This document shows, piece by piece, positions 22,254 through 30,836 of a stretch of 64,000 bases of DNA. The notes under the pieces were generated by a model that saw only the letters and a list, made by a program, of their open reading frames with translations, was not told the DNA's origin and did no database searches. Position 1 is the first letter of the stretch. Each line of letters starts with the position of its first letter. A program made the position numbers and the translations under genes. Source of the DNA: a virus; the IMG/VR virus record IMGVR_UViG_3300009151_009564, positions 1-64,000 of that record; one strand, 5' to 3'.

Positions 22254-22556
22254 TTATTTATTAAATAGTTCGTCTAATATTCCTAATCCTTTAGCAGAGT
22301 GATAAGCGCCTGAAGCTAATCTAGAGAACTGACCTTTTGATTTATATTTTTTAGCTTCTTCTCTTACTGCTTCTTCACTCCATTTTTTATTTCTTGGAAA
22401 AATAGATTGTTGAAGTCCTCTTTTTTGAATATTTCTATATAAGTCAGGATTATTACGTCTTAACTCCTCATATGATTTATATTTAGAAGCTTTATCCCTA
22501 AGTTCTTCTATTTCCGTCTTTGATTCAAAAACTTTGAATGTTTCAATATGTTTCAT
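22254..22556 (-). CDS. Small protein with two endonuclease-associated repeats, 100 aa
   Basis: Starts MKHIETFKVFES (capsid-targeting-like). Two repeats follow, SKYKSYEELRRNNPDLYRNI and KKYKSKGQFSRLASGAYHSA, of the type seen as DNA-binding modules in phage homing endonucleases (a matching copy occurs in the protein at 30973-32139). No catalytic domain. It may be a DNA-binding protein derived from such an endonuclease. First gene of a two-gene unit with the exonuclease; a TTTAATATATA motif ends four bases before its ATG. Confidence 0.75.
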   Translation of the reverse strand: MKHIETFKVFESKTEIEELRDKASKYKSYEELRRNNPDLYRNIQKRGLQQSIFPRNKKWSEEAVREEAKKYKSKGQFSRLASGAYHSAKGLGILDELFNK

Positions 22557-22560
22557 ACCA

Positions 22561-22571
22561 TATATATTAAA
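22561..22571 (-). promoter_or_regulatory. Phage-type promoter motif (minus strand)
   Basis: Exact TTTAATATATA on the minus strand, four bases upstream of the ATG at 22556. Forms a divergent pair with the copy at 22585-22595. Confidence 0.55.
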
Positions 22572-22584
22572 AGTGAAAATAATA

Positions 22585-22595
22585 TTTAATATATA
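22585..22595 (+). promoter_or_regulatory. Phage-type promoter motif (plus strand)
   Basis: Exact TTTAATATATA, four bases upstream of the M16 peptidase ATG at 22600. Together with the minus-strand copy it fills a 43-base divergent intergenic region. Confidence 0.55.
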
Positions 22596-22599
22596 TGAT

Positions 22600-23706
22600 A
22601 TGATTGTTAATTTAAAAAGTCAAACCGAAATGTCTGGTTTTTATATAGTCTTTCAAGGATCTACTAATTTAGAAAGACCTGGAATCTATGGAATATCACA
22701 TCTTTTAGAACATTGTGTTTGCCATAGCTTTGAAAATCTAAGAGAGGAACTAGAAAGGGATGGTATAGACTGGAATTTTTATACATCTTCAAATGAGATA
22801 GTTGGTTATTTTACTGGATTGGATAGTTATTTAAATAAATGGAAATCCAAACTGTTAGACTTGATTGGGGAATTCAAAACAACAAAGGATAAATTTGAAA
22901 ACGAAAAGAATATAGTTCTACAAGAATATACAAATTACTTTGCGGATCAAGGTGAGGCTCATGCCTTGAACTTATCCAGAAAGTTATTTAAAGATTTTGA
23001 CCCAATAGGAGTTAAAGAAGATTTAGAAAAACTAAAATTTATGGACGCTCTTAACTTTTGGGAACTTCAGTTTTCAAATCCTTCCAAAATAATTAATATA
23101 TCAGCAAGCAGTCCATTTAAATCTGATATAGAATTCTCCATACCAAAAAATGATAGAACTTATAAATTCGGTCCTTATAATGATGTTGTTTTAGAAAAGA
23201 TGAATGATTATGGTGATAAAGCTTCAGTTATGATGGTTGGTCCGTTAGCTGATTCCGACTTTGCGTATATTTCATTTATTAATGGTATGTTATCAACTGG
23301 TTTATCTTCTCCTTTATATACTGAAGTTAGAGAGAAAAAAGGTTTAGTTTATTATATTAGATGTTCTCAATCTAGGTTGAATAATCAGGGTGTTACTTCA
23401 ATAACAACTCAAACATCGACTGATAATGTTGAAAAGGTTTATGATGCGGTCAAAGGGGTTTTAGATAATCCTAAAAAGTTTATGACTAAAAGTAGGTTTG
23501 AGACTATTAAAGATTCTCATCTTATAAGACTTAAAAAAGAAAAGATAAATAGATTTGCTAATATTCAAAAATGGATAACTCCACCAGAATGGTCTATATC
23601 TTCTATAATAGAAACTGTAACATTAGATAAACTAATGGAGGTATATGATAAGTATTATAAATCTGATGATTTTTATTTATCGAGTGATAAAAATGAATTT
23701 AAATAA
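22600..23706 (+). CDS. M16-family zinc metallopeptidase (pitrilysin / processing peptidase type), 368 aa
   Basis: Inverted zinc motif HxxEH is intact: GISHLLEHCVC with H34, E37, H38; a third ligand candidate is E109 in NIVLQEYTNY. The C-terminal M16 signature SSPLYTEVREKKGLVYYI is also present. M16 enzymes cleave peptides inside a closed chamber. At 368 aa it is a single M16 unit of the half-size class (such as subunits that dimerise). Start chosen at 22600, because the open frame upstream is antisense to another gene and the promoter motif ends four bases before. Followed without gap by two capsid-targeting-like genes. Rare in phages; substrate unknown. Confidence 0.88.
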   Translation: MIVNLKSQTEMSGFYIVFQGSTNLERPGIYGISHLLEHCVCHSFENLREELERDGIDWNFYTSSNEIVGYFTGLDSYLNKWKSKLLDLIGEFKTTKDKFENEKNIVLQEYTNYFADQGEAHALNLSRKLFKDFDPIGVKEDLEKLKFMDALNFWELQFSNPSKIINISASSPFKSDIEFSIPKNDRTYKFGPYNDVVLEKMNDYGDKASVMMVGPLADSDFAYISFINGMLSTGLSSPLYTEVREKKGLVYYIRCSQSRLNNQGVTSITTQTSTDNVEKVYDAVKGVLDNPKKFMTKSRFETIKDSHLIRLKKEKINRFANIQKWITPPEWSISSIIETVTLDKLMEVYDKYYKSDDFYLSSDKNEFK

Positions 23707-25762: not shown

Positions 25763-25773
25763 TATATATTAGA
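25763..25773 (-). promoter_or_regulatory. Phage-type promoter motif variant
   Basis: Minus-strand TCTAATATATA, one mismatch from TTTAATATATA, six bases before the Dam-like ATG; overlaps the ClpP stop codon. Confidence 0.4.
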
Positions 25774-26335
25774 GAATTTCATCCACCACTCCGAGCTCGA
25801 GTGCTTCTTCAGCTGGCATGAACCAATCAACTTTACCATCATAGATTTCTTTCAATTTCTTTCTGGTGATTTTAGTCTTTTCGATTGTCATGTTTTCAAT
25901 CTGTTTCTGAAGACGTTTAGACTCTTCCAATCTTTCTTCCATTTGCTTAACAGTACCAATCACTCCACCTGATACCTGATGGTATAGTGGGGTTGAATAC
26001 TTGTGAGCAAATCTTCTGTGTCCATGAATAAGGATCATAAATCCACAACTCATAGCTGCTCCGGTTACTATAGTGTGTATTGGAGTTTTTGATTTCTCCA
26101 TAACAGACAATAGACCAAAACACTGATAAACAAGTCCGCCATAGGAGTCAATATAAATATTGATTGGCTTTGGTTTATAGTTTAAACCATAAACATCGTA
26201 AAGCTTTTTAAGATGCTCGTCATCCTCATTTATTTCGAGGATGTTCTTAGTTAAATCTCCCATAGATGCTTGATCTACTTGTTTGTTTAGATAAAGATTT
26301 CTTTCCTTTGGTAAGGGTAAATTTCCTGTTGCCAT
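25769..26335 (-). CDS. ClpP-like serine protease, 188 aa
   Basis: ClpP fold with an intact triad: S96 (TGAAMSCGFMIL), H119 (PLYHQVSGG), D170 (GKVDWFMPAEEA); the oxyanion Gly-Gly lies in IDSYGGLV. Forms a barrel protease that normally works with a AAA+ unfoldase; no such ATPase is in this window, so it may join host ClpX/ClpC or act in prohead maturation, where ClpP-fold enzymes are known from other phages. Located between the Dam-like methylase and the release factor gene. Confidence 0.92.
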   Translation of the reverse strand: MATGNLPLPKERNLYLNKQVDQASMGDLTKNILEINEDDEHLKKLYDVYGLNYKPKPINIYIDSYGGLVYQCFGLLSVMEKSKTPIHTIVTGAAMSCGFMILIHGHRRFAHKYSTPLYHQVSGGVIGTVKQMEERLEESKRLQKQIENMTIEKTKITRKKLKEIYDGKVDWFMPAEEALELGVVDEIL

Positions 26336-26373: not shown

Positions 26374-27057
26374 TTAGTTTAGTAACTCAATTTTACCACG
26401 ACAAATTTCTTTATAAGTTGCTGTTCTACCGGTCTCATGATCGATAACCACATCTTCTTTTACTCTAAAAGTTCTTTTTTTATCTGACCTTTCAGAGTTT
26501 CCAATTTGGTTATATCTATCAGTATAAGTTTTTTTATTGAATTTTTCTTCTTCAACAACTTTTAACTTTTCTTCAAGTCTTGTCCAAGCGATTAACTCAT
26601 TTTCCTTTTGATTTCTGGTGTCTTGTACCTTAACCTGTGTTCCACTAGGGACATGGGTTAATATGACGCAGGTTTCGACCTTATTGACGTTCTGACCCCC
26701 TTTACCACCACTACGGGTATATTGGCGAGTTACTTTAGAACGGTCAAGTTTGTATTCAAACTTTTTGCTTGGATCAGTTATAGCAACTGTTATTGTAGAT
26801 GTTTGGGTTCTACCGTTTCGTTCAGTAGGTGGGATGCGAATCCATCTATGACATCCTGATTCGTTTTTGTAAAACTTATTTACTCCATCACCGGTTAGTC
26901 AGATAGAAGCATAACCTTCTCTTTGTTCGTAGATTTTACAATCGAACCCTTGGTTTCTTGCTGATTTACAGTAGATGTTTAATGTGTCTATGACTAATAG
27001 TTTAGAGTCACTTCCGCCTTCTCCGGCGCGAATTTCTAGTATAATTTCTTGTTTCAT
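26374..27057 (-). CDS. Class I peptide chain release factor-like protein with in-frame UGA at codon 53
   Basis: The frame runs from ATG 27057 to TAA 26374-26376 (227 codons) and is interrupted only by TGA at 26899-26901. Before it: 52 residues with RAGEGGSDSKLL (as RAGTGGxEA in RF1/RF2). After it, same frame: KNESGCHRWIRIPPTERNGR, the hydrolysis motif SGGKGGQNVNK (GGQ at 120-122), and the QVGSGxRSE-like block YNQIGNSERSDKKRTF. P76-P77-T78 aligns with the PxT codon-recognition motif of RF1 (UAA/UAG). Domain 1 of full RFs is missing. No Met occurs after the UGA, so the GGQ half needs readthrough. UGA is followed by CUA. Alternatives: pseudogene or a sequencing error. Confidence 0.8.
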
Positions 27058-27368: not shown

Positions 27369-27929
27369 TTAGCCGGTTGGTGGTTTATAATCTGGTTTTA
27401 TTTTTGTTAAAATATGTATTATATCGTATATATCTTTAGTCTGTTTTTTGGGTGTTCCAGATCTTAAAGATGATATTCTTGCTTTTGTTTCAATGATTTC
27501 AAATGGGTGGTGAAATAGAAATCCATCCTTTTCAATCACTATACTGTTATTCAGTGGAAAGAAATCAACATTATATCCTAATTTATAATTAGGATAATAA
27601 CCAAGTAACTCAATCTCTCCTTCCATTCCCGGATATCGGTTATGATATAGCTTTACATCTGGTTTTTCTTTAACCAAGAAGTCAATATCTTCTGGTAGTC
27701 TATCTAATAGTCCAAAAGCATAAAGAGCTGCTGAGCCGGTTAATACAGCCTTTCCTTTCCATTGCTTAATAATACTCCAGTGTTTATGATTCTGTATTAT
27801 ATTTTTTTTTCTTAATCTTTTAAGATCTGGTGTAAATTCTGGGGATTCTCCTAATACCATTGATAATTTTATATCTCTAATATCGGATTCTAAATCTTTT
27901 AGTTGTGGGGGTAAGGTTATATTAATCAT
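27369..27929 (-). CDS. Nucleotidyltransferase-fold protein, 186 aa
   Basis: Pol-beta-type nucleotidyltransferase signature: VLTGSAALYAFGLL with GS, followed by PEDIDFLV (the DxD pair) and a third acidic candidate in YNVDFFPL. C-terminal KDIYDIIHIL resembles AbiEii / MNT-type proteins. Such enzymes transfer NMP to proteins, RNA or small molecules; several are antiphage or toxin components. Here no antitoxin partner is evident. The ATG overlaps the TGA of the upstream 75-aa gene (ATGA). Confidence 0.72.
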   Translation of the reverse strand: MINITLPPQLKDLESDIRDIKLSMVLGESPEFTPDLKRLRKKNIIQNHKHWSIIKQWKGKAVLTGSAALYAFGLLDRLPEDIDFLVKEKPDVKLYHNRYPGMEGEIELLGYYPNYKLGYNVDFFPLNNSIVIEKDGFLFHHPFEIIETKARISSLRSGTPKKQTKDIYDIIHILTKIKPDYKPPTG

Positions 27930-29744: not shown

Positions 29745-30836
29745 TTATGAAATCTCATCACCCGTCTCCTTATAGGCTGGGTTAATAATCTTCAACCTAA
29801 GTGGAGTACCATCAACAGCTTTCCTATCGATATATGGACGAATTACTACGCCTTCACGAATATGAAGTGTCTTACCAGACACAAGTTCCATTCCCTTACA
29901 AAGGTCAACTACTTCTTTTGGAAGAAGGTAATCAATCTTTGTCTTGTGAATACCCTTTTCTGGATCAGAATAGATAACCACTTCTTTCTTATCAAGAGTA
30001 AGAGTACCATCGAATACTATAGGGACCCACATAGTCTTAAATACTTCCGGAACCATATCGTAAGGGATAGAATCCCCATTGAACCTAATGTCGAATAGAC
30101 GAGCTGTTGGTTTTGTTTGTCCGTAAGAGTATCCAGATTGAATAGGTACTACTTCACCAAATACCTGAATAATGCCCATACCAGACCAGTTAGACTTAAT
30201 CTTATTAACCAATCCGTCATTTTTAGCAGCTTCCCAGTAAGAGTTACCCTCAGCATCTTCGAGAACTAAACCCTTTTTAAGTTGTCCTTTAGACGATACA
30301 ATAGTTTCTCCGGTCTCAAGGTTATGAGCTAGGATGAACTGAGAACCGTGTACTTTTTCGGTAATGACTACCCTTTCACCATCGATAAGTTCGTTAACAT
30401 AAACACCAGCGTGTTCACAATCGTGATGACCGATGAAAGGCATATCGAATGATTTAACCTTACCAGCAAGTTGAGCTGGGATTGGTGGTTCGTACTTGGT
30501 AATACCAAGTAGTTCAGCAACATCTTCGTCCAGACTGATCTGATCGAAATTTGGTACAAGAGAGTTTGGAATGATAATACCACTTGAGATTTCACCACGA
30601 AGGCGAACTGCTTTAACACGGTCTTTGTTAGGACCGCTAAGGTACTTCTCGTATTCGGTTTTAAGTTGTCCGGTAAGTACAGACTTTTCCGGTGCGAAGA
30701 TAACTTCGTCACCATCGTTATAAAGTCCTTTCTGGACTACTACTTGGTATGATCCAACACGACCCAACATTAGGGCATCTGCGTTTGGATGTGTAAAAAG
30801 TGCGATTTTTTGTTTTGATACTCTGAAATTACTCAT
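29745..30836 (-). CDS. RNA ligase (Rnl2/DraRnl-like), 363 aa
   Basis: Covalent nucleotidyltransferase: motif I KVHG with nucleophile K161 (VITEKVHGSQFIL), motif IIIa-like IIQVFGEVV (about 224), motif IV REGVVIRP (about 328), motif V LRLKIINPAYK (about 350). An N-terminal beta-rich domain (1-130) precedes the ligase core, as in the DraRnl/Rnl5 group. Likely repairs nicked RNA, for example tRNA cut by host defence nucleases. No polynucleotide kinase partner is in the window. Codon use is somewhat more GC-rich than structural genes. A host-type promoter lies at 30855-30886. Confidence 0.9.
   Translation of the reverse strand: MSNFRVSKQKIALFTHPNADALMLGRVGSYQVVVQKGLYNDGDEVIFAPEKSVLTGQLKTEYEKYLSGPNKDRVKAVRLRGEISSGIIIPNSLVPNFDQISLDEDVAELLGITKYEPPIPAQLAGKVKSFDMPFIGHHDCEHAGVYVNELIDGERVVITEKVHGSQFILAHNLETGETIVSSKGQLKKGLVLEDAEGNSYWEAAKNDGLVNKIKSNWSGMGIIQVFGEVVPIQSGYSYGQTKPTARLFDIRFNGDSIPYDMVPEVFKTMWVPIVFDGTLTLDKKEVVIYSDPEKGIHKTKIDYLLPKEVVDLCKGMELVSGKTLHIREGVVIRPYIDRKAVDGTPLRLKIINPAYKETGDEIS

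Follow-up and report, generated by a model that had tools for sequence, protein, structure and literature searches.

A stop in the way: putative gated synthesis of an RF1-like release factor in a family of phages

The window, by which we mean the whole 64,000-nucleotide stretch of viral DNA that was analyzed, carries on its minus strand a release factor-like gene (27057-26374) that runs for 227 codons plus TAA in one frame and is broken solely by a TGA at codon 53. We propose, with a probability of roughly three in four, that this gene encodes a phage class I release factor that is RF1-like, consists of domains 2-4 only, and is synthesized under the control of a stop codon at which the ribosome must fail to terminate. 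The evidence for gating is wholly comparative, and it comes from a clade of phage genes in which every member is interrupted. The features of the window gene are as follows.

26374-27057, minus strand: a short gene for an RF1-like release factor made up of PCRF domain 2 and the GGQ domain, with no domain 1; the full product would be made only via UGA readthrough.
26902-27057, minus strand: codons 1-52, ahead of the stop; a 52-residue peptide upon normal termination.
26899-26901, minus strand: in-frame UGA, codon 53, referred to as site B; 20 other homologues have UGA at the same column, and another 10 genes have a CUU-UAG-C shift site there.
26896-26898, minus strand: CUA after the UGA (UGA-CUR context), a context shared by 19 of the 39 in-frame UGAs and by none of 198 genuine UGA terminators.
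26374-26898, minus strand: codons past the stop, encoding the rest of domain 2 and the GGQ domain; selection on these codons is purifying in homologues, and the window copy has no Met codon among them.
26839-26841, minus strand: Ile73, where Thermus thermophilus RF1 has Q181, the residue that reads the third stop base; I, L or V in the window clade.
26824-26832, minus strand: PPT, the PxT-type codon-recognition tripeptide of RF1; codons 76-78.
26803-26805, minus strand: Gln85, where T. thermophilus RF1 has H193.
26692-26700, minus strand: GGQ catalytic motif; codons 120-122.

When the frame is translated through the TGA, the resulting protein matches both the PCRF (E = 3.7e-20) and the RF-1 (E = 1.6e-23) domain profiles. 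The part ahead of the stop matches PCRF by itself (1.3e-7), and the part past the stop matches PCRF and RF-1. Re-reading of the sequence together with these profiles bears out the first-pass annotation of this DNA, which had described a release factor-like protein encoded in a single frame broken only at this codon. No ORF of at least 50 aa starting with ATG, GTG or TTG is found in frame past the stop in the window, and the second half lacks any Met, so a product that includes the GGQ motif would need readthrough of the UGA, as had been claimed. Internal initiation was likewise rejected for the relatives, in which almost no start lies between the stop and PPT. The context of the window stop is ATC TGA CTA, with the same frame continuing past it; a +1 shift runs into TAA immediately and a -1 shift into TGA five codons later. 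The site is thus no copy of the prfB mechanism, in agreement with the earlier description, and a prfB-type shift (CUU-stop-C, a Shine-Dalgarno element and an open +1 frame) was rejected for the window site, whereas those elements are present in GC-rich relatives. The 73,524-base IMG/VR virus record that contains the window has one release factor gene, and the same is true of each phage genome searched.

Homologues were obtained from searches of phage records and IMG/VR, the two collections from which all family counts derive, and were aligned in a frameshift-aware manner together with the nucleotides around each site. Their sources include LR756502, LR756501/503, LR745206 and LR756504 (634-735 kb, complete Mahaphage genomes among them). 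These sizes agree with those of the >634 kb Mahaphages, for which Bacteroidetes hosts have been predicted (PMC7162821); the description of those phages refers to release factors 1 and 2, and the passages found on them are silent about recoding. A single clade (support 98/97) unites the 40 distinct interrupted genes, and two uninterrupted relatives (L031 and L150) fall outside it. At least one recoding stop is present in all 40 distinct clade members, at three positions and in three forms: an in-frame UGA, with up to two per gene; a +1 shift at CUU-UAG-C; and, in GC-rich phages, the prfB layout GGAGG-NNN-CUU-UGA/UAG. At site B, 21 of the 40 distinct genes have an in-frame UGA and ten have CUU-UAG-C (mostly CTATGYCTTTAGC, +1); many of the homologues with UGA at this site are only 43-62% identical to the window protein. 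Site A, which lies approximately 10 codons upstream of site B, is an in-frame UGA. Site A', farther upstream, is either an in-frame UGA in AT-rich phages or a GGAGG-NNN-CUU-UGA/UAG +1 site in GC-rich phages, and the GGAGG-type site of one gene (L143) has a weaker Shine-Dalgarno element. Two UGAs in series occur in many genes of the family, and two genes (L135 and L148) combine UGA readthrough with a CUU-UAG-C shift that follows it. On the tree of 40 genes, the mode of the gate, its site or the identity of its stop has switched at least 13-14 times.

A lone stop in one assembled contig would look alike if it had arisen in a pseudogene, by sequencing error or by chance nonsense mutation. The comparative data refute this explanation, to which we attach a negligible probability: the same stop occurs in 20 other distinct genes, every family member is interrupted, and omega is well below 1 past the stop. 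The alignment of homologues, which the first-pass annotation had suggested as a check, reveals that UGA is retained rather than replaced by UGG and that there are no scattered stops. Programmed readthrough, as in the earlier interpretation, is thus supported. What a single sequence did not reveal is that the gene in other phages uses UAG, a +1 shift (at this site or in the prfB layout), or UGA together with UAG. What the family conserves is a stop that the ribosome has to get past, rather than the particular UGA of the window.

For homologue pairs with unsaturated dS, omega past the stop is 0.06-0.25. A conserved in-frame stop flanked on either side by coding sequence under selection is the pattern expected of programmed readthrough, and the window gene and its homologues show it. 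UGA accounts for every one of the 39 in-frame stops, and the genomes that carry them terminate 70-78% of their ORFs with UAA. The base at +4 of these UGAs is C in 19 cases and A in 20, and is never U or G (n = 39); among genuine UGA terminators of four such phages (n = 198), by comparison, it is C in 4 and U or G in 106. Fisher tests of the +4 contrast, uncorrected for the kinship of the members, give 8e-14 and 5e-12; given that kinship, the counts are not independent trials. A leucine codon that follows an in-frame UGA is CUA or CUG in 19 of 19 cases, although CUR makes up only 10-24% of leucine codons. UGA-C has been described as a weak terminator (PMC3521657), in keeping with the leaky context that had been noted for the window stop.

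A search for conserved RNA structure around the sites yielded no consensus pairs, and a single locus (L116) gave a z of -2.7 that is not shared. The basal readthrough of UGA-C without a stimulator may be at a low level. Given this, and given the lack of a conserved structure, genes with two UGAs in series would be expected to yield hardly any product except where termination is severely compromised. The same result bears on selenocysteine insertion, which a UGA at a conserved position might also suggest. Besides there being no stem downstream of the UGA that is conserved or of unusual stability, no tRNA-Sec is found among the 46 tRNAs of LR756502, no SelB scores above the cut-off in 13 relatives, and homologues have UAG shifts or Ser, Cys or Lys at this position. 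With neither a SECIS stem nor the Sec machinery in evidence, a selenoprotein was rejected, and we consider its probability to be close to nil.

We also asked how UGA is used elsewhere in these genomes. Of the 75 ORFs on the window contig that reach 100 aa, 10 terminate in TGA, and the mean extension past it is only 8 codons; in LR756502 (complete, 642 kb), 95 of 716 ORFs do so, with a mean extension of 5.6 codons. A codon-usage scan for interrupted frames proved too noisy, so a homology screen by tblastn was used. Reciprocal tblastn of ORFs among the window contig, LR756502 and parts of LR745206 and LR756504 produced hundreds of alignments, none of which pointed credibly to another gene carrying an in-frame UGA. 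These results agree with the earlier statement that UGA is not globally recoded, and they do not fit a genome-wide code 4 in which UGA is a sense codon: UGA terminates, the tRNA set of LR756502 has no UCA anticodon, and the tblastn screen turned up no further genes with in-frame UGAs. A related explanation invokes a dedicated suppressor tRNA for the UGA, or a change of code as in a code 4-like stage of infection, with the gene being switched by the recoding. Phages that use code 4 have been reported to carry RF1, a UGA suppressor tRNA and a tryptophanyl-tRNA synthetase (TrpRS) (PMC10746230), and a compact TrpRS is encoded by three UGA-type relatives of the window phage. Nevertheless, the ordinary use of UGA as a frequent terminator with short extensions, the missing UCA tRNA in a complete genome, the lack of a second gene with in-frame UGA in the genomes screened, and the use of UAG and +1 shifts by relatives all argue against it, and we regard it as largely refuted and very improbable.

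The compact TrpRS is about 240-254 aa in length and matches positions 6-224 of 328. It is found in three phages with UGA-gated release factor genes, at L050:14257-14976 (LR756502 374257-374976), LR756501 204548-205138 and G007 415191-415790, and it could relate to tryptophan insertion at UGA. In LR756502 the TrpRS gene sits amid tRNA genes, and no tRNA-Trp was found in that genome. LR745206 encodes a phage tRNA-Trp(CCA) (L083:3033-3104) whose D-stem has a U11-A24 pair that recalls the Hirsh UGA suppressor. We attach no weight to the resemblance, because bacterial tRNA-Trp commonly has this pair.

In profile searches, the window protein is matched best by RF1 (NCBIfam PRK00591.1, E = 2.9e-51), followed by RF2 and PrfH (E = 9.3e-23 for PrfH). 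The match begins at approximately residue 105 of RF1, so that the N-terminal domain 1 is absent, and it is because of this missing domain that the score falls short of the NCBIfam RF1 cut-off (174.6 of 400 bits). By these measures, the protein is a relative of RF1 and not an equivalog of prfA. Its best solved relative is T. thermophilus RF1, and an AlphaFold model of the read-through product, made with 18 homologues, has a mean pLDDT of 89.3 and a TM of approximately 0.9 to ribosome-bound RF1. The PCRF and RF-1 domains, GGQ, and a PxT tripeptide in the form of PPT are all present, as expected of a class I release factor of the RF1 type and as the first-pass annotation had noted of the motif. 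One alternative use of such a protein is in ribosome rescue or translation takeover, in the manner of PrfH or ArfB, with the gate merely keeping the full-length factor very scarce. PrfH, too, lacks domain 1, and it appears among the matches by both sequence and fold. However, the recognition motif and the overall score are RF1-like, and the predicted structure is closer to RF1 than to PrfH, for which the TM is 0.64. PrfH is not known to have a PxT or a stop gate. We therefore consider a rescue role quite unlikely.

Two residues with which RF1 reads the stop codon have been replaced. Q181 of RF1 reads the third stop base, as seen in RF1 structures. The equivalents of Q181 and H193 are replaced in the window protein by I73 and Q85, whereas Q and H are retained in many relatives. 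For this reason, reading of UAG by the window factor is doubtful and reading of UAA is most likely, insofar as specificity can be predicted from these two residues. All seven genes of the window's own clade, which has UGA gates only, carry I, L or V at the Q181 position and Q at the H193 position. RF2 has Val at the Q181 position, and UAG-gated genes all retain Q or H there. These substitutions could mean that the factors of this clade have changed specificity and read UGA, in which case the gate would provide direct negative autoregulation as in prfB, via readthrough rather than frameshifting. Standing against this are the retained PPT, a PxT tripeptide of the kind through which RF1 specifies A as the second stop base, and the RF1-like residues retained by most other UGA-gated members. 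The association between gate codon and specificity residues is suggestive and rests on one clade; given the single origin of the changes, the correlation with UGA gating is weak. We judge a changed specificity to be unlikely. In one GC-rich relative (L030:3001-3649, LR745208), the codon-recognition tripeptide has been lost (HRVQRTSNGRIHSS) while GGQ and a CUU-UGA-C gate are retained, and the product is possibly a factor without codon specificity. Another gene (L151) likewise lacks the PxT segment.

Stop-codon-gated synthesis, the reading that we favor, would operate as follows. The gate in the window is UGA-CUA at codon 53. When the host has ample active RF2, termination at the UGA would be fast and only a useless 52-residue peptide would be made. 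Slow termination would let a near-cognate tRNA, in all likelihood that for tryptophan, read the UGA, and the full factor with its GGQ domain would result. In the relatives with +1 sites, peptidyl-tRNA-Leu would slip at CUU when termination at UAG or UGA is slow. The variable sensed would thus be termination capacity, and for UGA gates this would be host RF2. At UAG gates, host RF1 would compete, as possibly would the phage factor itself, which would amount to true feedback. The UGA form would be no simple feedback loop, since the PxT motif predicts no UGA recognition by the factor. Autoregulation in the strict sense, which the first-pass annotation had proposed, would require the product to read UGA, and the PxT motif argues against it. 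Two stops in series would act as an AND gate. The purpose of such an arrangement may be to restore termination at UAA and UAG late in infection, when host factors would be short or inactivated, while avoiding an excess of factor that would end translation at sense codons.

A close precedent is found in an amoeba virus. The eRF1 genes of Mimivirus (R726) and Megavirus (mg280) use UGA-C readthrough and then a +1 shift at CUU-UAG/UAA-C (Jeudy et al. 2012, PMC3521657), the same order as in L135 and L148, and they too specify a virus-encoded class I release factor. However, the Mimivirus protein is an eRF1 of the eukaryotic/archaeal type, whereas the phage genes encode a bacterial RF1-type protein and often use UGA readthrough alone. 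Since the two proteins are unrelated, the likeness would be convergent. Bacterial prfB is likewise a stop-gated release factor gene (PMC12421855), and the GGAGG-NNN-CUU-UGA-C sites of the GC-rich relatives have the spacing and slip of Flavobacterium johnsoniae prfB, AGGAGGUAUCUU-UGA-C (PMC8710568). In contrast to prfB, the phage protein is of the RF1 type, some copies have UAG, and the window copy has no frameshift but only an in-frame UGA. In a 2025 survey of RefSeq genomes, UAG was absent from 8,164 prfB shift motifs and no programmed shift was found in prfA (PMC12421855). The prfA family is the nearest one in both sequence and fold. Cellular prfA includes domain 1 and showed no programmed recoding in that survey, whereas the phage family lacks domain 1 and is universally recoded. 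The release factor of the Lak megaphage MK250016 (L187) belongs to a related clade of huge phages; unlike those of the other Mahaphage-like genomes compared, it is full-length, RF2-like (SPY) and uninterrupted in a code 11 reading of the region, and Lak recodes UAG genome-wide.

A 2016 review considered in-frame UGA readthrough in RF2 genes and noted that it had never been found in sequenced genes and that a UAG/RF1 counterpart was unknown, naming the giant-virus gene as an exception (PMC5009743). Our searches of the open-licence literature turned up no description of comparable recoding in a release factor of phages, and the at least 40 phage genes described here would fill both gaps. We lean modestly toward the broader view that bacterial-type release factor genes can be ruled by in-frame UGA readthrough, with an RF1-type/UAG version as well, and that phages gauge host stop recognition by means of a single stop or two in succession (UGA for RF2, UAG for RF1) and produce a substitute factor only if termination breaks down, the gate being conserved and its mechanism freely exchanged. 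The family would then document evolution swapping readthrough for frameshifting at one site, and phage and amoeba virus would have converged on release factor gating. The comparative pattern suggests that the factor is made only when stop signals are poorly recognized, and gated genes of this kind offer testable readouts of termination capacity in the course of infection. In huge phages, such release factors are split or overlooked by gene callers.

Several genes near the release factor gene were also identified in the window. A ClpP-like protease gene (25769-26335, minus strand) lies directly downstream, and a homologue of it is found within a few kb of the release factor gene in six other loci. 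A weak match to an AbiEii-like nucleotidyltransferase (27369-27929, minus strand) lies near the upstream side, and an RNA ligase gene (PF09414 plus a PHA02142 OB-fold; 29745-30836, minus strand) is found a few genes upstream. The window also has an M16 family metallopeptidase gene (22534-23706, plus strand), which is unusual in a phage.
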